Origin: Pseudomonas baetica
GTDB lineage: Bacteria; Pseudomonadota; Gammaproteobacteria; Pseudomonadales; Pseudomonadaceae
Direction: 5' to 3'
DNA: 64,000 bases
Assembly: GCF_002813455.1 (NCBI RefSeq)
Contig: NZ_PHHE01000001.1
Span: 744,001-808,000 of the forward strand
Position 1 is the first letter of the stretch. Each line of letters starts with the position of its first letter. A program made the translations under genes and the position numbers. Below are positions 19,186-63,352 of this stretch, in pieces. A model generated the notes under the pieces. The model had not been told where the DNA came from. It did not search any database and saw only the letters and a list, made by a program, of their open reading frames with translations.

Positions 19186-19287
19186 GGTTTTTCAATCCGC
19201 AAGGCTTTGAAAGGTTGTCGGCGATGTCAGCTTTTTATTGAATTTTTCTTTCGGTAATCAGCACGGCGTCGCAAAACGGGCCTTGCT

Positions 19288-19894
19288 TCAACCGGCCAGC
19301 ATCGGATAAGTGAACAGGCCGAAATGCAGCAGGTTCAGCCCGAAGTGTGTGGCGATCGCCGCTCCGAGTCCGCCAAAACGGTAGGCCAGACCATAGCCGA
19401 CCCCCGCCAGCCCTGCCAGCAACACCCAGGTCCAGCCCGCACCCACATGGGCCAGTGCGAACAGCGATGAGGCCAGTAACAGGGCGAGGTTGTCGCCATA
19501 TGGCAGCGAGGGCAGTGGCGTACACCGTCAAACGCAGTGAACGGCGCATGACAATCCACGGACAGATCAGCAACAGCCAGAAGCCGATCAGCGGTTTGTC
19601 TTGATTGAGGTACATCGAGAACGGCACGGCGTTGTCGGTAAAACGTTGCGGATCGATGGCGCGACCGTTGTAGAAACCCGGCAGCCAGTGCAGCGCCAGG
19701 GCCAAAGCCAGAACGATGAACAGGCCGTGACCGAGATAGCGCGCAAACGGAACGTGTTGCTGGCGTACGGCGAATCCGGCGATCAATAGCAGCCCGCCGG
19801 AAGTCAGTGCGAGCCAGCCGAGTTGGCCGTAGCTCAGCGCCAATCCGTAACCGAGGGTGAGAAGTGCCAGATAGAGCCATGGCAAAGCCTTCAT
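19288..19894 (-). pseudogene. CPBP intramembrane metalloprotease remnant
   Basis: The ATG at 19892-19894 opens a membrane protein (MKALPWLYLALLTLGYGLALSYG) with several helices. After LRLTVYATALA (near 19505) the frame is wrong; the last ~70 codons are found in another frame, ending TGA at 19288-19290, and read LLLASSLFALAHVGAGWTWVL ... ATHFGLNLLHFGLFTYP. The two His-containing CPBP (CAAX-protease-like) motifs are present, but the EExxxR catalytic motif expected between the halves is missing. An internal deletion with a frameshift has therefore destroyed the gene. The same-strand ORF 19235-20122 is a composite including the repeat array. Confidence 0.7.
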
Positions 19895-19949
19895 CGAAAA
19901 TCTTTGTGCAAATTTTGTGGAAGGGCTTTCTACACGGCTGGGGGCTTGG

Positions 19950-21276
19950 GGACAAGTTAAGGTGAGGTGAGAATCCGGGACAACACTGAAACCTGTGACC
20001 CAACACAAACCCCAATGTGGGAGCGGGCTTGCTCGCGAAGGCGGTGGGTCAGGCAATGAATGTGTCGACTGATACACCGCTTTCGCGAGCAAGCCCGCTC
20101 CCACAGTGGATTTGTCTTCCACCGGGGGGCAGAGGGTTCAGACAGGTGAAAGTGTGGCGAGAATCCCGGACAACACTGAAACCTGTGACCCAACACAAAC
20201 CCCAATGTGGGAGCGGGCTTGCTCGCGAAGTCGGTGGATCAGGCAATGAAAGTATCGACTGATACAACGTTTTCGCGAGCAAGCCCGCTCCCACAGTGGA
20301 TTTGTCTTCCACCGGGGGGCAGAGGGTTCAGACAGGTGAAAGTGTGGCGAGAATCCGGGACAACACTGAAACCTGTGACCCAACACAAACCCCAATGTGG
20401 GAGCGGGCTTGCTCGCGAAGTCGGTGGATCAGGCAATGAATGTGTCGACTGATCCACCGCTTTCGCGAGCAAGCCCGCTCCCACAGGGGATTTGTCTTCC
20501 ACCGGGGGGCAGAGGGTTCAGACAGGTGAAAGTGTGGCGAGAATCCGGGACAACACTGAAACCTGTGACCCAATACAAACCCCAATGTGGGAGCGGGCTT
20601 GCTCGCGAAGGCGGTGGGTCAGGCAATGAATGTGTCGACTGATACACCGCCTTCGCGAGCAAGCCCGCTCCCACAGCGGATTTGTCTTCCACCGGGGGGC
20701 AGAGGGTTCAGACAGGTGAAAGTGTGGCGAGAATCCCGGACAACACTGAAACCTGTGACCCAACACAAACCCCAATGTGGGAGCGGGCTTGCTCGCGAAG
20801 TCGGTGGGTCAGGCGATGAATGTGTCGACGGATACAGCGCCTTCGCGAGCAAGCCCGCTCCCACTGGGGATTTGTCTTCCACCGGGGGGTCGAGGGATCA
20901 GACAGGTGAAGGTGAGGTGAGAATCCGGGACAACACTGAAACCTGTGACCCAACACAAACCCCAATGTGGGAGCGGGCTTGCTCGCGAAGTCGGTGGATC
21001 AGGCAATGAATGTGTCGACTGATCCACCGCTTTCGCGAGCAAGCCCGCTCCCACAGGGGATTTGTCTTCCACCGGGGGGCAGAGGGTTCAGACAGGTGAA
21101 AGTGTGGCGAGAATCCGGGACAACACTGAAACCTGTGACCCAATACAAACCCCAATGTGGGAGCGGGCTTGCTCGCGAAGGCGGTGGGTCAGGCAATGAA
21201 TGTGTCGACTGATACACCGCCTTCGCGAGCAAGCCCGCTCCCACAGGGGATTTGTATTCCACCGGGGGGTAGAGAA
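19950..21276. repeat. Seven tandem ~190-bp units, each holding a REP doublet
   Basis: The phrase CAACACTGAAACCTGTGACC recurs at about 19980, 20170, 20360, 20550, 20740, 20930 and 21120, exactly 190 bp apart. Each unit contains an inverted pair of REP palindromes (TGTGGGAGCGGGCTTGCTCG and its inverse) joined by a ~45-bp spacer, plus the phrases CTTCCACCGGGGGG and CAGACAGGTGAA. Units 3-4 and 6-7 are nearly identical pairs, showing higher-order duplication with a 570-bp shift. No protein is likely; open frames here repeat with the same period and translate the REPs. The array fills the space between the broken CPBP gene and inhA. Confidence 0.95.
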
Positions 21277-24859: not shown

Positions 24860-26686
24860 TTACGGCTGCCACTCACTCTTTTCCCCACTCAATCGCCGAT
24901 CGAGAAAACTCGCCGCACTGATCAACGCCAGATGCGTCAATGCCTGCGGCGTGTTGCCCAAATGCCGCCCGTGGCTGTCGAACTCCTCGGCGTACAGCCC
25001 CAGCGGGTTGGCGTAGCGCAGCAACTGTTCAAACTCCAGATGGGCCTTTTCCACTTGCCCGGCCCGGGCCAGACATTCGACGTACCAGAACGAGCACGCG
25101 GCAAACGCGCCTTCGGTGCCGGTCAAGCCGTCGATGTTGGCGTCATCGTTGCGATAGCGATAAACCATGCCGTCACGCACCAGCGTCTTTTCGATGGCCT
25201 CAAGTGTCGACAGCCAGCGTGGATCCTTGGCGCTGACGAAACGCACCAGCGGCATCAACAGCATCGAGCCATCGAGGGCTGTGCCGCCCTTGTACTGGAC
25301 GAAATGTCCGCGCTCTTCATCCCAGAAGTTGTCCCAGATGTCGGCGTAGATCGCTTGACGGGTCTGGTCCCACTGGGCGAACGGTGCCGGTAACGAGCGT
25401 TTTGAGGCCAGACGGATTGCCCGGTCCAGCGCCACCCAGCACATCAGGCGCGAATGCAGAAAGTGATGTTGCTCACCACGCATTTCCCAAATGCCGACAT
25501 CCGTGGTCTGCCAGGTCTCACACACCTGATCGACCACTTCGCGCACGTGTTTCCAACCTTCGTGGGAAATCGCGTCGCCGTACTTGTTGACCAGATACAC
25601 CGCGTCCATCAGTTCGCCGAAGATATCCAGCTGAATCTGGTCATAGGCGCCATTGCCGATGCGCACCGGTTTTGCGCCGCCGTGGCCGGATAAGTTGGCA
25701 AGTTCGGTTTCCGGCAGTTCCTGACGCCCGTCGATGGCATACAGAATGTTCAGTTTCATCGGCTGGCCATGGCAGTCGCTGACCCGCCCGCGCAGCCAGC
25801 GCATGTAATCGTTGGCTTCGCTGACAAAACCCAGGCGCATGAACGCGTAGACCGTGAACGAGGCATCGCGGATCCAGGTGTAGCGATAATCCCAGTTACG
25901 CTCGCCGCCCGGTGTTTCCGGCAGGCCGAAGGTCGCAGCGGCGAGAATCGCGCCGTGTTTGCGTGAGGTCAGGAGTTTCAGTGCGAGCGCCGAGCGGTTG
26001 ACCATTTCACGCCAGCGTCCGCGGTAGATCGACTGACCGATCCAGTCGCGCCAGAATTTCAGCGTGCGCTCCATGCAGAACGCGCCGGCGCCTTCGGCAA
26101 AACGCGGATCGTCGGTGGCACCGAGCATGAAAGCGGCCGTCTGATCCTGCTTCAGCGTGAAGTGAGCGACGGCGGCTTGGGCGTCAATCTGCATCGATTG
26201 GTCTGAGGCCAGACGCAACGTCGGTTGCCCGGAGGCACTGAACACCACGTCCTTCTGATCGTTCTGCGCTTGAGTGTCGGCGCGGGCATAGTCGTGGCGC
26301 ACGGCGCAGCGCATGTGAAAGGTCGCCTCGCCGCTGACCACCCGTACCCGGCGCATCAGCAAAGGCAGATCATCTTCGCTGTCGCCCACCGGCAGCATGT
26401 CGGTGATTTCCACTACGGCGTATTCACTGAGCCAGCGGGTTTGCAGGACGTTGGTGTCGGGCAGGTAAATCTGCTCGCGGCGGGCATCGGGCAAGTCCGG
26501 CGCCAGTTGGAAAATCCCGGCGTCGGGCGAGTCCAGCAGCGAACAGAATATCGACGGGCTGTCGAACTCCGGCCAGCAGAAAAAATCCACGCTGCCCTTG
26601 TCGTTGACCAGTGCCGCACTGCGCATGTCGCCGATGATGCCGTGGGCGTCGATCGGGCTTTGTCGTTCTGGATGTTGCTCAGCCAT
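24860..26686 (-). CDS. Glycoside hydrolase family 15 protein (glucoamylase/trehalase-like)
   Basis: 608 aa cytoplasmic enzyme (no signal peptide). An N-terminal beta-sandwich domain (IIGDMRSAALVNDKGSVDFFCWPEFDSPSIF) is followed by an (alpha/alpha)6 barrel. GH15 landmarks: GGERNWDYRYTWIRDASFTVYAFMRLGF near residue 260, WEMRGEQHHFLHSRLMCWVALDRA with a probable general acid, and GLTGTEGAFAACSFWYVECLARAGQ with the probable base. Such bacterial proteins hydrolyse trehalose or alpha-glucans. Its ATG overlaps the SDR stop codon by 8 bp, so it is the downstream gene of an operon with the SDR. Confidence 0.9.
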   Translation of the reverse strand: MAEQHPERQSPIDAHGIIGDMRSAALVNDKGSVDFFCWPEFDSPSIFCSLLDSPDAGIFQLAPDLPDARREQIYLPDTNVLQTRWLSEYAVVEITDMLPVGDSEDDLPLLMRRVRVVSGEATFHMRCAVRHDYARADTQAQNDQKDVVFSASGQPTLRLASDQSMQIDAQAAVAHFTLKQDQTAAFMLGATDDPRFAEGAGAFCMERTLKFWRDWIGQSIYRGRWREMVNRSALALKLLTSRKHGAILAAATFGLPETPGGERNWDYRYTWIRDASFTVYAFMRLGFVSEANDYMRWLRGRVSDCHGQPMKLNILYAIDGRQELPETELANLSGHGGAKPVRIGNGAYDQIQLDIFGELMDAVYLVNKYGDAISHEGWKHVREVVDQVCETWQTTDVGIWEMRGEQHHFLHSRLMCWVALDRAIRLASKRSLPAPFAQWDQTRQAIYADIWDNFWDEERGHFVQYKGGTALDGSMLLMPLVRFVSAKDPRWLSTLEAIEKTLVRDGMVYRYRNDDANIDGLTGTEGAFAACSFWYVECLARAGQVEKAHLEFEQLLRYANPLGLYAEEFDSHGRHLGNTPQALTHLALISAASFLDRRLSGEKSEWQP

Positions 26687-27479
26687 TGCCGCGAAACTCC
26701 GGATAGAGGCTCATGCCGCCGTCGATGAACAGGGTGGTGCCGACGATGTAATCGGCGGCGTCGGAGGCGAGGAAGACCACCGCGTTGGCGATGTCTTCAA
26801 CATCGCCGATACGCCCGTAGGGGATCAGGTCGAGGAGTTTTTCGCCGGCCGCGCCTTCGGTGGCGTCTTTATTGATCGCGGTACGAATCGCCCCCGGCGC
26901 GATGCCATTGATGCGAATACGCTGATGGCTGACTTCCTGCGCCAGGGTCTGCATCAATTGATCGACGCCACCCTTGGACGCCGCGTAATTGACGTGCCCG
27001 GCCCACGGAATGCGTTGGTGCACAGAACTCATGTGAATGATCTTGCCGGCGGCGCGGGACACGCCTTCGCGAACGCCCTGGCGATTGAAAATCCTTAAAG
27101 CGGCGCGAGCGCAGAGGAACTGGCCGGTGAGGTTGACGCCGATCACCGCGTTCCAGTCGTCCAGCGTCATGTCCACTGCAGCGCAGTCTTTTTGCAGACC
27201 GGAATTGGCCACCAGAATGTCCAGCGAACCGAAGGCCTCGAGGGTCTCGGTGAACAGCCGTTCGACCTGGTCTTCTTTCGACACATCGGCACCGATGGCC
27301 AAGGCCTGGCCGCCGTCGGCGATGATCTGCCGGGCGAGTGCTTCGGCCGGTTCCGCCTGGCGGTTGTAGTTGATCACCACGGCGGCACCGGCAGCGGCCA
27401 GGGCTTTGGCGGCGGCGTGGCCGATGCCGGAGCTGGCGCCGGTGATGAGTGCAACTTGTCGGGCGAGGGAGATCTGCAT
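26679..27479 (-). CDS. SDR oxidoreductase, glucose 1-dehydrogenase-like
   Basis: 266 aa from ATG 27477-27479 (MQISLARQVALITGASSG); two earlier ATGs lie in a longer frame to 27548. Classical short-chain dehydrogenase: cofactor motif TGASSGIG, a VANSG variant of the usual NNAG, catalytic Ser in HMSSVHQR and YAASK, and the C-terminal GTTLFIDGGMSLYPEFRGNG typical of glucose 1-dehydrogenases. An Asn-Tyr-Asn-Arg stretch after strand 2 suggests NADP preference. It overlaps the GH15 gene and follows the terpene-synthase fusion gene by 87 bp. It may oxidise glucose released by the GH15 enzyme; action on a terpenoid alcohol is only a possibility. Confidence 0.85.
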   Translation of the reverse strand: MQISLARQVALITGASSGIGHAAAKALAAAGAAVVINYNRQAEPAEALARQIIADGGQALAIGADVSKEDQVERLFTETLEAFGSLDILVANSGLQKDCAAVDMTLDDWNAVIGVNLTGQFLCARAALRIFNRQGVREGVSRAAGKIIHMSSVHQRIPWAGHVNYAASKGGVDQLMQTLAQEVSHQRIRINGIAPGAIRTAINKDATEGAAGEKLLDLIPYGRIGDVEDIANAVVFLASDAADYIVGTTLFIDGGMSLYPEFRGNG

Positions 27480-27566: not shown

Positions 27567-29114
27567 TCAGAGCTTGTAACGCGCGCTGGTGCGGTGCCAT
27601 TCCAGGTTACCGGCCAGCCAACTCTTGAGTCCGGTCAGGTAGCGCTGGAGCAGTGGCGAGGCCTGCGGCAATACGGCTTGTTCTGCCGCCTCATACAAGC
27701 CCATGACTTTGTTGTGAATGGCTGCGCTCTGCGCCATCGCTTGCTCGATCGAACATTGTTGCTCGCGCATCAACAGCAGCGGCAGATTGTAATTACCGAC
27801 ATTCGTCTGGTTTTCTTTTGCGGCAGAATACAAGTCGTTGGCAAGGATCGTGGCACTGGCGGCCAATGCGGTGACCTGTCGCACAGCGGGTGCGCTGTAG
27901 ACGTTTTCTGTTAAATCATAACCACCAATCACATCAATCAACGACAGGCATGGCAGGAAGCTGTTGACCTGACGCTGACTGAGATACTCCCACAGTGGCG
28001 GGATAAGGTTTGCCATTCGCCAACCCGCTTCACCGGCCATACTGATGAACATGGCGCAAATTTCATGGCGTACGCGGGCGGTTTGTGCTGGGGTCGACAA
28101 CGCTTCGACACGCTTCATATAGTCCTGAAGGGCGACCAGTACCGGATCGCGGTTGAACGCTTCATTGAGGGCGGGACGAAACGAGGGAGCGAGATGGAAC
28201 GGCTCCAGTGCGCCGAGCGCCCTGGCCAGTCTTTGCCCGACCAGTCGCGGTTCGGAGCCGGTTTTTTCATCGTCACAGTAGTAGTCGTCCACACTGAACA
28301 AGGCGCCCATGCATTGGGCCTGCAGCAACAAGCGATCGGGATCATCGGTATCGGTATGACAGAGCATGGCGAAACGTCCGAACCCCGCAGCGCGGAGTTT
28401 GTCCCGTTGCCCGGGGAAAATGCCGGTCTGTATGACCCAAGACATGAATCGATCCTCGACCGCTTCGGCCAGCGCATCATCGATGCGAAAGGGCGCCGGA
28501 CAGTGCAGGGCAGGCACCGTCCAGGCAGACATCCCGGCAACGGATGTCACCCGCGATGCCGAGGATGAGCGACGCGAAGCCCGAGCCGCTTCAAACCATT
28601 GCTGCACGCCAGCGATACCGAACTGCTCGAACACCCGACGAAACCAGACCGTGAATTGTTCCGGTGACTGCTCGAGCTGCGTGACAACGTCTGCAAGCGA
28701 TAACCACTGCCAGTTTTGTGCCTCCTCGGGATTGGCTCGCGGTGCTGTCTCACTGATGCCGGCAAACACATGGTCGAATTCATGTTCGATCAACTGGTTG
28801 GACACCTGTTCGTGATAGAGCATCGAAGTGACTTTAGCGATTTTGCAGGTCAGCCCCATTTCTTCCCGCAAGCGGCGTTTGGCAGCGGCACGGGTCCGTT
28901 CTCCTGCGCAGGGGTGGCCGCAACAGGTATTGGTCCATAAACCGCCGGAGTGATATTTGTCCGGCGCCCGTTGTTGCAGCAGCAAGCGGCCATGGTGGTC
29001 AAAGATGAAGATCGAAATGGCACGATGACGAAGCCCCTGTTGATGCACCAGCATCTTCGCAGCAACGCCGGTTTTACGGTCTTTGGGTGAAACCAGAATC
29101 AGAGAATCTTCCAT
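27567..29114 (-). CDS. Fusion: type I IPP isomerase + 2-methylisoborneol-type terpene cyclase
   Basis: 515 aa from ATG 29112-29114 with AAGGAG 8 bases upstream (the frame is open to 29168). Residues about 1-165 are a Nudix IPP:DMAPP isomerase: catalytic Cys in LWTNTCCGHP, Nudix helix RRLREEMGL and catalytic Glu in IEHEFDHVF. A Ser/Arg-rich linker (about 175-195) leads to a class I terpene cyclase with Mg-binding DDYYCDDE near 275, NSE motif NDLYSAAKE near 425 and a C-terminal RY. The DDYYCDD form and overall text match 2-methylisoborneol/2-methylenebornane synthases, which act on 2-methyl-GPP. No prenyltransferase or C-methyltransferase gene is nearby. Confidence 0.88.
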   Translation of the reverse strand: MEDSLILVSPKDRKTGVAAKMLVHQQGLRHRAISIFIFDHHGRLLLQQRAPDKYHSGGLWTNTCCGHPCAGERTRAAAKRRLREEMGLTCKIAKVTSMLYHEQVSNQLIEHEFDHVFAGISETAPRANPEEAQNWQWLSLADVVTQLEQSPEQFTVWFRRVFEQFGIAGVQQWFEAARASRRSSSASRVTSVAGMSAWTVPALHCPAPFRIDDALAEAVEDRFMSWVIQTGIFPGQRDKLRAAGFGRFAMLCHTDTDDPDRLLLQAQCMGALFSVDDYYCDDEKTGSEPRLVGQRLARALGALEPFHLAPSFRPALNEAFNRDPVLVALQDYMKRVEALSTPAQTARVRHEICAMFISMAGEAGWRMANLIPPLWEYLSQRQVNSFLPCLSLIDVIGGYDLTENVYSAPAVRQVTALAASATILANDLYSAAKENQTNVGNYNLPLLLMREQQCSIEQAMAQSAAIHNKVMGLYEAAEQAVLPQASPLLQRYLTGLKSWLAGNLEWHRTSARYKL

Positions 29115-29330
29115 GGCGAGGCTCCTTGTGCCTTCGCTTCCGGACGAAACAACTGACCAGACTGACAAGTGAAATTCAGGCTTACGGTGAGTGGTACAGA
29201 GAAGTTAGTTCAAGCGATTGGGAACGGCAAATAGCCGAATTCGCCTCTTTAACATTCCACCAACAATTGCTTGCTTCCCCGGTCATCGACCTTTATGGCA
29301 ACTTGGCCGCCCCTGATGAGGCTGTGACCG
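29115..29330. promoter_or_regulatory. Divergent promoter gap, terpene fusion / MFS
   Basis: 216 bp between divergent starts. No gene and no obvious operator is seen. Confidence 0.4.
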
Positions 29331-30503
29331 ATGGCAAACCCCTACCGCGAGTTGTTCAACGCCCCCGGCGCCCGGAATTTTGTGCTGGCGGGAATGATCG
29401 CGCGCATGCCGATTTCCATGACCGGGATTGGCGTGATCACCATGCTTTCGCAGCTGTACGGCGGGTACGCGTTGGCCGGTGCGGTGGCGGCTACGTTTGC
29501 CTTGGCCACGGCGTTTTGCGCACCGCAGGTGTCGCGCCTGGTTGACCGTTTCGGCCAGGGTAAAGTGCTGCCTGTTTCGGCGTTGCTCGGTGGCGGGGCG
29601 TTGCTGATGTTGCTGCTGTGCACGCGGTTGCAGGCGCCGACCTGGACGCTGTTTATCTTCGCCGCGCTGGCCGGTTGCATGCCGAGCATGTCGGCGATGG
29701 TGCGCGCGCGCTGGACCGAAATCTATCGTGGCCAGCCGCAATTGCAGACGGCGTATGCGCTGGAATCGGTGCTTGATGAAGTGTGTTTCATCGTTGGCCC
29801 GCCGTTGTCGGTCGGCCTCTGCGTGGCGGTGTTTCCCGAGGCTGGACCGTTGGCGGCACTGTTGGCACTGGCGATCGGCGTCACCGCTTTTGTCGCCCAG
29901 CGCAGCACCGAGCCGCCGGTGCATCCGCATGGCTCGCAGCATCAGGTTTCGATCATCCGTTCAACCGACATCCAGTTGTTGTTGGTATTGATGATTGCCA
30001 TGGGCGTAATCGTTGGCGTAGTCGATGTGGTCAGCGTCGCGTTCGCCCAGCAACAGGGGCAACCGGCGGCTGCCAGTATTGTCTTGTCGGTGTATGCCAT
30101 CGGGTCGTGTCTGGCCGGCCTGGCGTTTGGCGCGCTGCGCTCGAAACTGCCGCTGCCACAACTGTTTTTGTATGGCGGGGTGGCGACGGCGGTGACGACG
30201 TTGCCGCTGTTGCTCGCCAGCAATATTGTCGGTCTGGCGCTGGCGGTGTTCATTGCCGGGCTGTTCTTTGCCCCCACGCTGATCGTCGCGATGGCTCTGG
30301 TCGAGCGCATCGTGCCGCCGGCCAAACTCACCGAAGGCCTGACCTGGCTGGTGACCGGCCTGAGCATTGGCGTTGCGATCGGCGCTGCCGGCTCCGGAGC
30401 GCTGGTGGATGCGTTCGGCGCACGCAGCGGCTTCTGGCTGGCGATTGCGGCGGGGGCGGTGGTGCTTGGCGCGGCCGTGCAGAGTTACCGCCATCTGAAA
30501 TGA
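29331..30503 (+). CDS. MFS transporter
   Basis: 390 aa with 12 hydrophobic segments in two halves of six, of the small sugar-efflux/YfcJ-like drug-proton antiporter type. It begins MANPYRELFNAPGARNFVLAGMIARMPISM; the loop SRLVDRFGQGKVLPVSALLGG after helix 2 is the MFS motif A region, and RARWTEIYRG is in the 4-5 loop. The start ATG follows GAGG. It is 78 bp upstream of the thioesterase gene on the same strand, so it might export the NRPS product, but close MFS relatives are also free-standing. Confidence 0.82.
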   Translation: MANPYRELFNAPGARNFVLAGMIARMPISMTGIGVITMLSQLYGGYALAGAVAATFALATAFCAPQVSRLVDRFGQGKVLPVSALLGGGALLMLLLCTRLQAPTWTLFIFAALAGCMPSMSAMVRARWTEIYRGQPQLQTAYALESVLDEVCFIVGPPLSVGLCVAVFPEAGPLAALLALAIGVTAFVAQRSTEPPVHPHGSQHQVSIIRSTDIQLLLVLMIAMGVIVGVVDVVSVAFAQQQGQPAAASIVLSVYAIGSCLAGLAFGALRSKLPLPQLFLYGGVATAVTTLPLLLASNIVGLALAVFIAGLFFAPTLIVAMALVERIVPPAKLTEGLTWLVTGLSIGVAIGAAGSGALVDAFGARSGFWLAIAAGAVVLGAAVQSYRHLK

Positions 30504-61807: not shown

Positions 61808-62065
61808 CTATTGCGGTTTGAAACCGGGTTTGCCGTTGGCGGCTCGCCATTCCTTCACTTTGCTAACGATCGCTTCCGGGGTAGCCTCCTCGTCGGAGTT
61901 GGCGTAATAAATCATGTCCGAGCCGTGGGGGTGTTCAGTCAGCTCTTCAAATAACAGCACTGCGCGGACCTGTTCTTTTTCCGAGTCAAATTGCGCATTG
62001 CAAATTCCGGATACGAACCGCAGAAAATCTGCTTCGGTGTAATCGGAAAGAATTGGTTTGTGCAT
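61808..62065 (-). CDS. Colicin/pyocin DNase immunity protein, copy 4 (divergent)
   Basis: 85 aa acidic four-helix protein of the colicin E2/E9-pyocin immunity family (MHKPILSDYTEADFLRFVSGICNA ... EHPHGSDMIYYANSDEEATPEAIVSKVKEWRAANGKPGF). The helix III HPxGSDxIYY motif that binds the DNase is intact. It is the most divergent of the four copies and is directly preceded, one base from its ATG, by an orphan HNH toxin tip. It probably protects from a DNase with that lost tip. Confidence 0.88.
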   Translation of the reverse strand: MHKPILSDYTEADFLRFVSGICNAQFDSEKEQVRAVLLFEELTEHPHGSDMIYYANSDEEATPEAIVSKVKEWRAANGKPGFKPQ

Positions 62066-62066
62066 T

Positions 62067-62190
62067 TCAATTTTTTCCCTTGTGGATTTCAGAGTGTTGT
62101 TTTGGTGTGGTGACTCTTATGTTTTCAATGTCGTAGATGTCACCGCTTTTGGATATGTATTTCGTGTGGTGTAGTTCGAGATTAATCTGG
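62067..62190 (-). pseudogene. Orphan HNH nuclease tip of a lost bacteriocin
   Basis: Minus-strand codons from 62189 down read [20 protein letters not shown], then [20 protein letters not shown] and a TGA. The spacing HH-x14-N-x8-H-x3-H is exactly that of colicin/pyocin DNases and of the intact bacteriocin at 63353 (HHVNP...). No start codon or upstream toxin portion exists; 24 bp upstream is the stop of the next immunity gene. TGA-A-ATG spacing to the immunity gene is preserved. Confidence 0.8.
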
Positions 62191-62213
62191 CTGACAGTTC
62201 TTTCAGGGACTGA

Positions 62214-62474
62214 CTATTCCGGTTTGAAACCCGGTTTGCCGTTGGCGGCTCGCCATTCTTTGATGGCTTTTAAAACGCCTGCGGGGCTGTCTTCGACTCC
62301 CTTAGCCGGGTAGTACAAAATATCCGAACCGCTCGGGTGTTCCGAAATGTTCACTATGTTGTCCACTATCGCGTCGTGCTCTCTCTCGGAAGAGTAGTCT
62401 CCCTCCACCAAACGATTTATTAAGGCTGCATATTCTGACTCTGTGTATTCCTCAAACTTGGCCTTCAATACCAT
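62214..62474 (-). CDS. Colicin/pyocin DNase immunity protein, copy 3
   Basis: 86 aa from ATG 62472-62474 (MVLKAKFEEYTESEY); preceded by GGGAGA. Motif EHPSGSDILYYPAKGVEDSPAGVLKAIKEWRAANGKPGFKPE intact. Near-identical in layout to copies 1 and 2. A REP copy lies upstream and no toxin remnant was found there. Confidence 0.9.
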   Translation of the reverse strand: MVLKAKFEEYTESEYAALINRLVEGDYSSEREHDAIVDNIVNISEHPSGSDILYYPAKGVEDSPAGVLKAIKEWRAANGKPGFKPE

Positions 62475-62518
62475 TTTCAAATTATCTCTCCCAGTGCCGG
62501 ACAACATTGAACCTGTGG

Positions 62519-62608
62519 CGAGGGAGCAAGCTCCCCCGCCACAGAGCTATGCATCTTCAGGGCTGTACCGGTCTGAGTATCACTCCCTGTGGGAGTGAGC
62601 CTGTTCAC
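62519..62608. repeat. Two different REP-type palindromes
   Basis: GTGGCGAGGGAGCAAGCTCCCCCGCCAC (62515-62542) and GTGGGAGTGAGCCTGTTCACGAAG (62590-62612 region), between immunity copies 2 and 3. Confidence 0.6.
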
Positions 62609-62645
62609 GAAGTGGTCAGCCCTGACAGCTTTTTTCAGGAACTGA

Positions 62646-62906
62646 CTATTCCGGTTTGAAACCTGGTTTTCCGTTGGCGGCGCGCCAATCTTTGATGGTT
62701 TTTAAAACACCTTCCGGACTGTCTTCAACACCTTCGGCGGGATAATACAAAACGTTTGATCCTGCAGGGTGCTCGGCTGCATCGACGATGAGTTCTACAA
62801 TTTCATCCAGCTCTTTTTCTGATGAATAGTCTCCTGCGAACAGGCGGCTAGTCAGGGCTACATATTCTGACTCTGTGTACTCTTCGAACTTGGCCTTCAA
62901 TACCAT
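62646..62906 (-). CDS. Colicin/pyocin DNase immunity protein, copy 2
   Basis: 86 aa from ATG 62904-62906 (MVLKAKFEEYTESEYVALTSRLFAG). The frame runs on upstream to 63074, but that part translates a REP hairpin. DNase-binding helix motif EHPAGSNVLYYPAEGVEDSPEG is present with SN in place of SD. Same C-terminus WRAANGKPGFKPE as the others. Confidence 0.9.
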   Translation of the reverse strand: MVLKAKFEEYTESEYVALTSRLFAGDYSSEKELDEIVELIVDAAEHPAGSNVLYYPAEGVEDSPEGVLKTIKDWRAANGKPGFKPE

Positions 62907-62944
62907 CTTCAGTTGCTCCACCGATACCGGAAAATCTTCAACCC

Positions 62945-63077
62945 GTGGCGAGGGCGCTTGCTCCCGCTGGTCTGCGCAGCAGACCAGAGTCGGCATAAGC
63001 GGAGTGTCAGGCACACGTTGAACTCTGGTTTTACGACTGCGGCGCAGCCGAGCGGGAGCAAGCTCCCTCGCCACATG
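62945..63077. repeat. Long hairpin repeat (GTGGCGAGGG...GCTTGCTCCCGC family)
   Basis: GTGGCGAGGGCGCTTGCTCCCGC at the left and GCGGGAGCAAGCTCCCTCGCCAC at the right are inverted copies; between them TGGTCTGC-GCA-GCAGACCA forms a smaller hairpin. Confidence 0.75.
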
Positions 63078-63091
63078 GTTATGCTGGAACT

Positions 63092-63352
63092 CTATTCTGG
63101 TTTGAAATCAGGTTTGCCGTTGGCGGCTCGCCATTCTTTGATAGCTTTTAGTACGCCGGCTGCGCTGTCCTCAACGCCTTCTTCGGGACAGTACAGAATG
63201 TCTATTTCATTCGGGTGTTCTGAAGTTTTTACGATGTTTTCTACAATGTCATCGTGTTCTTTCTCTGAACGGTAATTCCCATGGAATAGCCGGTTTATAA
63301 GGCTGAGATATTCTGATTCTGTGTAGTGTTCAAGTTTTCCCTTGAGGTTCAT
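63092..63352 (-). CDS. Bacteriocin DNase immunity protein, copy 1 (cognate)
   Basis: 86 aa, MNLKGKLEHYTESEYLSLINRLFHGN, with EHPNEIDILYCPEEGVEDSAAGVLKAIKEWRAANGKPDF. The ATG (63350-63352) directly abuts the TAA of the bacteriocin gene, so it is translationally coupled and is the cognate immunity. Its binding helix differs from copies 2-4 (NEID instead of (S/A/H)GS(D/N)), as expected for a different DNase specificity. Confidence 0.92.
   Translation of the reverse strand: MNLKGKLEHYTESEYLSLINRLFHGNYRSEKEHDDIVENIVKTSEHPNEIDILYCPEEGVEDSAAGVLKAIKEWRAANGKPDFKPE

Follow-up and report, generated by a model that had tools for sequence, protein, structure and literature searches.

The literature presents Pfl_1841 of Pseudomonas fluorescens Pf0-1 as a C11 cyclase from Pseudomonas and a close relative of 2-methylisoborneol synthases (MIBS). 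According to one report, the Pf0-1 2-methylenebornane synthase uses 2-methyl-GPP when this is supplied, both in vitro and in work with E. coli, and C11-terpene synthases, including the Pf0-1 enzyme, accept GPP (PMC5908152). The MIBS of Streptomyces coelicolor, as stated in another report, converts GPP poorly (PMC10520479). IPP isomerase (Idi) accompanies terpene genes in several further systems. It comes first in the terpene operon of the sodorifen, chlororaphen and grimophan clusters, where it is thought to boost the precursor, and is a separate gene in the sodorifen and grimophan clusters (PMC6366047, PMC13022886). It is linked with the cyclase family studied here in encapsulin operons and in Nocardia (PMC8346489), and is joined to an isoprenoid-pathway enzyme in IDI-SQS of the diatom Phaeodactylum (PMC6330534, PMC6723447). 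No bacterial fusion of Idi with a terpene synthase, and no account of a wider range of Idi-first fusions in bacteria, was recognised in a literature search that covered mostly non-subscription journals.

The window, that is, the whole analysed stretch of 64,000 nucleotides from Pseudomonas baetica (contig NZ_PHHE01000001.1), contains such a fused gene at 27567..29114 (minus strand, stop codon included). Its reading frame is unbroken from the ATG at 29114 to the stop at 27567 and encodes 515 amino acids arranged as Idi, linker and class I terpene cyclase. An AAGGAG sequence resembling a ribosome-binding site (29122..29127, minus strand) lies 7 nt before the ATG. The protein search, in which 7,996 candidates were scored and the best 120 of 230 matches examined, revealed at least 18 full-length relatives besides the window protein (P0002-P0019; 63-70% identity). 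The continuous frame, its one good start and these relatives confirm that Idi and cyclase are fused in one protein, as the preliminary description had proposed. Chance or an assembly artefact is ruled out by the relatives and by the intact fusion in seven other genomes.

Two internal starts that could yield separate proteins were rejected. A pattern search found no Shine-Dalgarno-like sequence before M195, the ATG in the linker; the same search detected such a site before the second gene in the split loci L011/L151 (one genome) and L012, and gave no match in the split locus L136. M224 is preceded by a Shine-Dalgarno-like match but is located inside the first cyclase helix (residues 213-230) of the predicted model. 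The fused gene is genuine and has been retained by a group of relatives.

Family models, alignment with E. coli Idi and a structure match delimit the Idi (Nudix) domain to residues 1-165 (28620..29114, minus strand). The Pfam model NUDIX scored above its cut-off at residues 29-158, and so did two NCBIfam models of type I Idi covering residues 3-161, TIGR02150 (113.6; cut-off 105.8) and NF002995 (155.3; cut-off 127). The domain also matched the structure of E. coli Idi with an rmsd of 2.3-2.4 (Foldseek). Residues H24, H30, C65, H67, E110, and E112 align with H25, H32, C67, H69, E114, and E116 of E. coli Idi, the latter numbers being derived from this alignment; we take them to be the catalytic cysteine and metal ligands, as in the E. 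coli enzyme. The motifs WTNTCCGHP and EHE are present, and TNTCCGHP with the catalytic cysteine was placed at 28911..28934 (minus strand) by motif check and the E. coli alignment. The catalytic motifs were retained in 19 of 19 fused proteins. Judged by these sequence features, the domain is an intact type I IPP isomerase. A second type I Idi was not found in this genome beyond two weak Nudix matches, and no type II Idi scored above cut-off.

The AlphaFold2 model (44 sequences; mean pLDDT 91.2; pTM 0.63) predicts two firm domains and a disordered linker, with the placement of the domains relative to each other being uncertain. The linker, residues 184-195 (28530..28565, minus strand), is the only stretch of at least three residues with pLDDT below 50; it is variable and 8 amino acids shorter in three of nine compared proteins. 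Silent sites are near saturation in pairs involving the window sequence, and dN/dS was taken from the five least saturated pairs. Idi gave values of 0.06-0.14 and the cyclase 0.10-0.16, which indicates purifying selection on both domains.

The class I terpene cyclase domain, recognised by family models and structure match, occupies residues 196-514 (27573..28529, minus strand). Terpene_syn_C_2 (Pfam) was above its cut-off at residues 268-470. The NCBIfam model of MIBS-like cyclases, NF041167, which is named as encapsulin cargo terpene cyclase, matched residues 180-513 with a score of 397.3, marginally below its cut-off of 400. Falling below this model is weak evidence because the cyclase of another genome, G395, which is linked to a GPP methyltransferase (GPPMT), also falls below it (377.6). 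The metal motifs and the RY pair were found intact, as claimed earlier, by motif check and alignment. These are DDYYCDD (residues 276-282; 28269..28289), the NSE motif NDLYSAAKE (residues 426-434; 27813..27839), and R512Y (residues 512-513; 27576..27581), all on the minus strand. The domain shares these motifs and the RY pair with Streptomyces MIBS (3v1v, 4la6), whose fold it matches with an rmsd of 1.7-1.9 over 315-320 columns at 30-31% identity; 4zq8 was matched with an rmsd of 2.7-2.8 (Foldseek). The proposed kinship with 2-methylisoborneol and 2-methylenebornane synthases was thus supported, with 2-methylisoborneol synthases being nearest. Pfl_1841 is probably a member of the same clade. 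The accessible part of its published description mentions no Idi part, whereas the window protein carries Idi in front.

Comparison with the other described systems revealed further differences. The Streptomyces MIBS group is linked to GPPMT, for which no homologue was found in the window genome, and the proline-rich disordered N-terminus reported for Streptomyces MIBS (PMC10520479) is replaced by Idi in the window protein. Idi is a separate gene in the encapsulin operons and in Nocardia, where GPPMT is also present; the gene order MIBS-GPPMT-Idi was seen in five Nocardia loci (L036, L041, L047, L048, and L067). The long disordered terminus of Family 2 encapsulin cargo is absent from the window protein, which has the folded Idi in its place and only residues 184-195 below pLDDT 50 in the model. 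The encapsulin shell marker PF19307 had no match in the genome and was silent in control genomes as well. Sodorifen-type loci (L060, L063, and L066) possess Idi with 66-68% identity near the same MFS/thioesterase flank. However, the sodorifen, chlororaphen and grimophan clusters have a separate Idi (sodA, pgrA), SAM methyltransferases, FPP-derived products and a different cyclase type, while Idi is fused in the window. Finally, the partner of Idi is squalene synthase in the diatom, a eukaryote, and a cyclase in this bacterium.

Of 398 Pseudomonas genomes, 47 matched Idi or a related cyclase at E <= 1e-30; the rows examined had three scored candidates for each genome. By our reading of these rows, 23 genomes possess this cyclase group: eight carry it fused, including the window genome; two have adjacent separate genes (G225 and G297); and 13 have the cyclase without an adjoining Idi. 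One of the 13, G016, displays a partial cyclase match and has Idi elsewhere in the cluster (L147). A 24th genome, G395, encodes a distant cyclase of 38% identity. The spread of the fusion, which the preliminary description had left to be determined, therefore amounts to eight of 398 genus genomes with the intact form, besides the full-length relatives named above.

A quick, midpoint-rooted tree was built from 145 cyclases, for which 20 of 44 non-redundant GPPMT-linked rows were kept. All 20 fused rows fell in one 29-row clade (SH-aLRT 99), which includes nine rows without Idi. The split loci L136 and L151 were placed in a neighbouring clade and the split locus L012 in a more distant one. The split genes thus lie outside the clade of the fused ones, and adjacent Idi and cyclase genes are more widespread than the fusion. 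The Idi domains fused to this cyclase grouped together in the Idi tree with moderate support (79/87). The locus search found no Idi at the site in L138, L145, L148, L149, and L150, where it was likely lost or replaced. P0020-P0023 and P0025 are database proteins known by protein sequence, without upstream DNA. The separate Idi and cyclase genes share a reading frame, with a stop between them, in L011 and L012, and differ in frame in L136. Since two relatives have separate adjacent genes in the same frame, the fusion probably arose by stop loss, which is the simplest account.

The fusion is followed downstream by genes for an SDR oxidoreductase (26679..27479, minus strand; in-frame ATG at 27479) and a glycoside hydrolase family 15 protein of 608 amino acids (24860..26686, minus strand; PF00723), which overlaps the end of the SDR gene. 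A divergent MFS transporter (29331..30503, plus strand) lies on the other side, and an NRPS is located past a thioesterase in the flank. Relatives with this site have conserved MFS, SDR and GH15 flanks, with identities mostly of 83-96%; the SDR is 84-96% identical in most fused loci. A role of the SDR as terpene alcohol dehydrogenase was considered and rejected: it accompanies different sets of terpene genes at this flank in L142, L143, and L147, and no SDR adjoins the fusion in L008, L154, and L155. It probably belongs to the flank, outside the terpene pathway. The same flank has Idi, DXS and a SodC-type methyltransferase instead in L060 and L063; in L143, DXS, IspG, IspH, and a prenyl synthase accompany a MIBS-like cyclase there. 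In L143, L144, and L147, this cyclase is combined with DXS, IspG, and IspH, to which Idi, DXR or a prenyl synthase is variously added; none of the three loci matched two methyltransferase probes. Earlier, neither a GPP synthase nor a methyltransferase had been seen adjacent to the fusion. This holds for the genes around the window fusion but not for all relatives, since in L153 the fused gene is closely preceded by a gene for a prenyl diphosphate synthase.

Elsewhere in the window, several ORFs at 19235-21262 share a repeated VGAGLLAKAV peptide and are perhaps translated dispersed repeats. At 61808-63352 on the minus strand, each of four tandem genes gives a match to PF01320, the colicin/pyocin immunity family.

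The two methyltransferase probes were a Streptomyces GPPMT (L018) and a SodC-type query, and would miss a methyltransferase unlike both. No GPPMT homologue was found in this genome, the best match of L018 (34% over 64 residues) being inside CfaB, a cyclopropane fatty acid synthase. A SodC-type methyltransferase was not found either, and CfaB was again the best match; the family scan covered all but four weaker matches of this query. Other methyltransferase matches included UbiG, above cut-off, and CFA synthase-like, Tam-like and CmoM-like proteins, below cut-off. Four generic SAM methyltransferases were among the genome matches (L085, L121, L124, and L125). At E <= 1e-12, GPPMT had no match in the 22 other genomes with this cyclase group (23 including the window genome). 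A single one was detected in all 398 genomes, where no genome had more than six scored candidates in the rows examined; it belongs to G395 and lies beside that genome's own 38%-identical cyclase. GPPMT was present within the fetched DNA in 45 of 49 actinobacterial loci. The remaining four are L016, L024, L032, and L062; the DNA of L024 starts 322 bases before the cyclase and hardly covers the upstream side. L016 contains a Streptomyces cyclase 53% identical to the window cyclase, and GPPMT is absent from its fetched flanks of 10 kb.

The window cyclase is positioned outside the GPPMT-linked clade, in a separate 93-row clade (SH-aLRT 92) of the midpoint-rooted quick tree. Positions -4/-3 before the DD motif are L/F in all 20 fused, nine Idi-less, three split and 26 further Pseudomonas-clade rows. 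The 20 sampled methyltransferase-linked rows have E (17) or L (3) at the former position and W (17) or T (3) at the latter; F at -3 occurred in none of 46 methyltransferase-linked synthases. S. coelicolor MIBS has E/N here (PDB alignment). In pentalenene and epi-isozizaene synthases, these positions are part of the pocket lining. The lack of a detectable GPPMT, the separate clade and L/F before the DD motif make an unmethylated substrate more likely, short of proof; the use of 2-methyl-GPP by the Pf0-1 enzyme and the poor handling of GPP by S. coelicolor MIBS weaken this reading. Judging from sequence, the window protein probably makes ordinary rather than methylated terpenes. The methylated substrate assumed earlier for the cell was not supported: the recommended search for a SAM methyltransferase related to those of GPP or IPP found none with the two probes, the cyclase is outside the methyltransferase-linked clade, and F is at -3.

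The prenyl side of this genome comprises one IspH, one octaprenyl-type synthase and one IspA (327.6 against a model cut-off of 321); no other prenyl diphosphate synthase of the farnesyl type was found. IspH yields IPP in excess of DMAPP, while GPP needs IPP and DMAPP one to one, so that Idi tied to a cyclase is sensible as a booster. The N-terminal Idi would convert IPP to DMAPP and raise the DMAPP share; the separate enzyme IspA would join DMAPP and IPP into a chain; and the C-terminal class I cyclase would ionise and cyclise this chain, which is most likely unmethylated GPP, yielding a bicyclic monoterpene of the bornane/camphene type. The fusion would set the DMAPP booster one-to-one with the cyclase, adjacent to it via a floppy linker. 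Strict channelling is unlikely because the chain-joining step belongs to a different protein. We infer catalytic activity, GPP as the substrate, the product and the benefit of fusion, and give the whole route, from Idi through IspA to a cyclase acting on unmethylated GPP, slightly better than an even chance. The local supply of DMAPP suggested earlier is upheld as a plausible role. The fused Idi is the only one found in this genome.

Several other readings have to be weighed against this route. The protein may be a genuine C11 enzyme forming 2-methylenebornane from 2-methyl-GPP, which an unrecognised methyltransferase encoded elsewhere in the genome would supply. The work on the Pf0-1 synthase in vitro and in E. 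coli (PMC5908152) agrees with this, as do a fold among the closest to MIBS and the four generic SAM methyltransferases. We nevertheless regard it as unlikely, given that no GPPMT-like or SodC-like gene was found in the genome, that none of the 23 cyclase-group genomes yielded a GPPMT match and that the clade is separate from methyltransferase-linked synthases. Quite unlikely, too, is the use of FPP or GGPP from the dedicated prenyl synthase of some loci. Ala five residues before DDxxD in prenyl synthases points to products longer than FPP, and the cyclase-adjacent enzymes of L143 (8711-9562) and L153 (9691-10533) carry it; Tyr occupies this position in L063, L064, L068, and the IspA of this genome, and Gly in L072, which is without this cyclase. 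Some residues near the cyclase motifs, whose pocket roles we assume, are also smaller than in most methyltransferase-linked synthases: position 273 has F instead of W, and position 431 has A instead of M. However, both prenyl synthases scored best with the FPP synthase model, and the Pf0-1 relative makes C11 products. Among fetched fused loci searched with an FPPS probe, moreover, a prenyl synthase adjoined the fusion only in G207 (L153; shorter piece L091); such a synthase is present in just one of four fused loci with wide flanks, L153, and absent from the window.

The remaining readings concern the Idi domain. Idi might be a passenger that serves solubility or regulation and has no catalytic purpose, a reading consistent with clade members lacking it and with the disordered MIBS N-terminus, which is reported to aid long-term solubility (PMC10520479). 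Retention of the catalytic motifs in every fused protein compared and low dN/dS make this improbable. The preliminary description had also speculated that Idi acts on a C-methylated IPP before chain building. A route from 2-methyl-IPP to 2-methyl-GPP does work in vitro with a Micromonospora methyltransferase, as the same paper reports (PMC10520479), but the two probes found no related methyltransferase here, and related cyclases persist at the same site without Idi. The Idi residues are, moreover, those of ordinary type I enzymes, and sod-type clusters have Idi 64-68% identical to it. The idea is left unsupported and appears highly improbable.

Fusions of Idi in the examined loci extend beyond the MIBS-like cyclase. 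Idi is also fused to farnesyl diphosphate synthase (type II) in P0114, L064, and L068, the last being assigned without a family scan; L064 and L068 also have matches to DXS, a SodC-type methyltransferase, IspG, and IspH in the same locus. A second fusion of Idi with a terpene synthase, of a different cyclase type, was found in L129-L135 and P0120; it is divergent from a GGPP synthase-like gene in L129-L135, and this second type falls in two places in the Idi tree. Three genus genomes (L126, L127, and L128) have Idi fused to a squalene/phytoene synthase domain, like the diatom IDI-SQS. We tentatively suggest, at somewhat less than even chances, that Pseudomonas Idi-first operons fuse repeatedly, with at least four kinds of partner (MIBS-like cyclase, second terpene synthase type, farnesyl diphosphate synthase, and squalene/phytoene synthase), and that the "2-methylenebornane synthase" group in nature uses GPP or a longer chain rather than a methylated substrate. 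If true, this would present a natural design that couples the precursor booster to the last enzyme of the route instead of the chain-maker, which would be useful for monoterpene engineering. Neighbouring genes of operons would then have fused repeatedly, and the name of a group of Pseudomonas terpene cyclases would refer to a substrate that their hosts may not produce.
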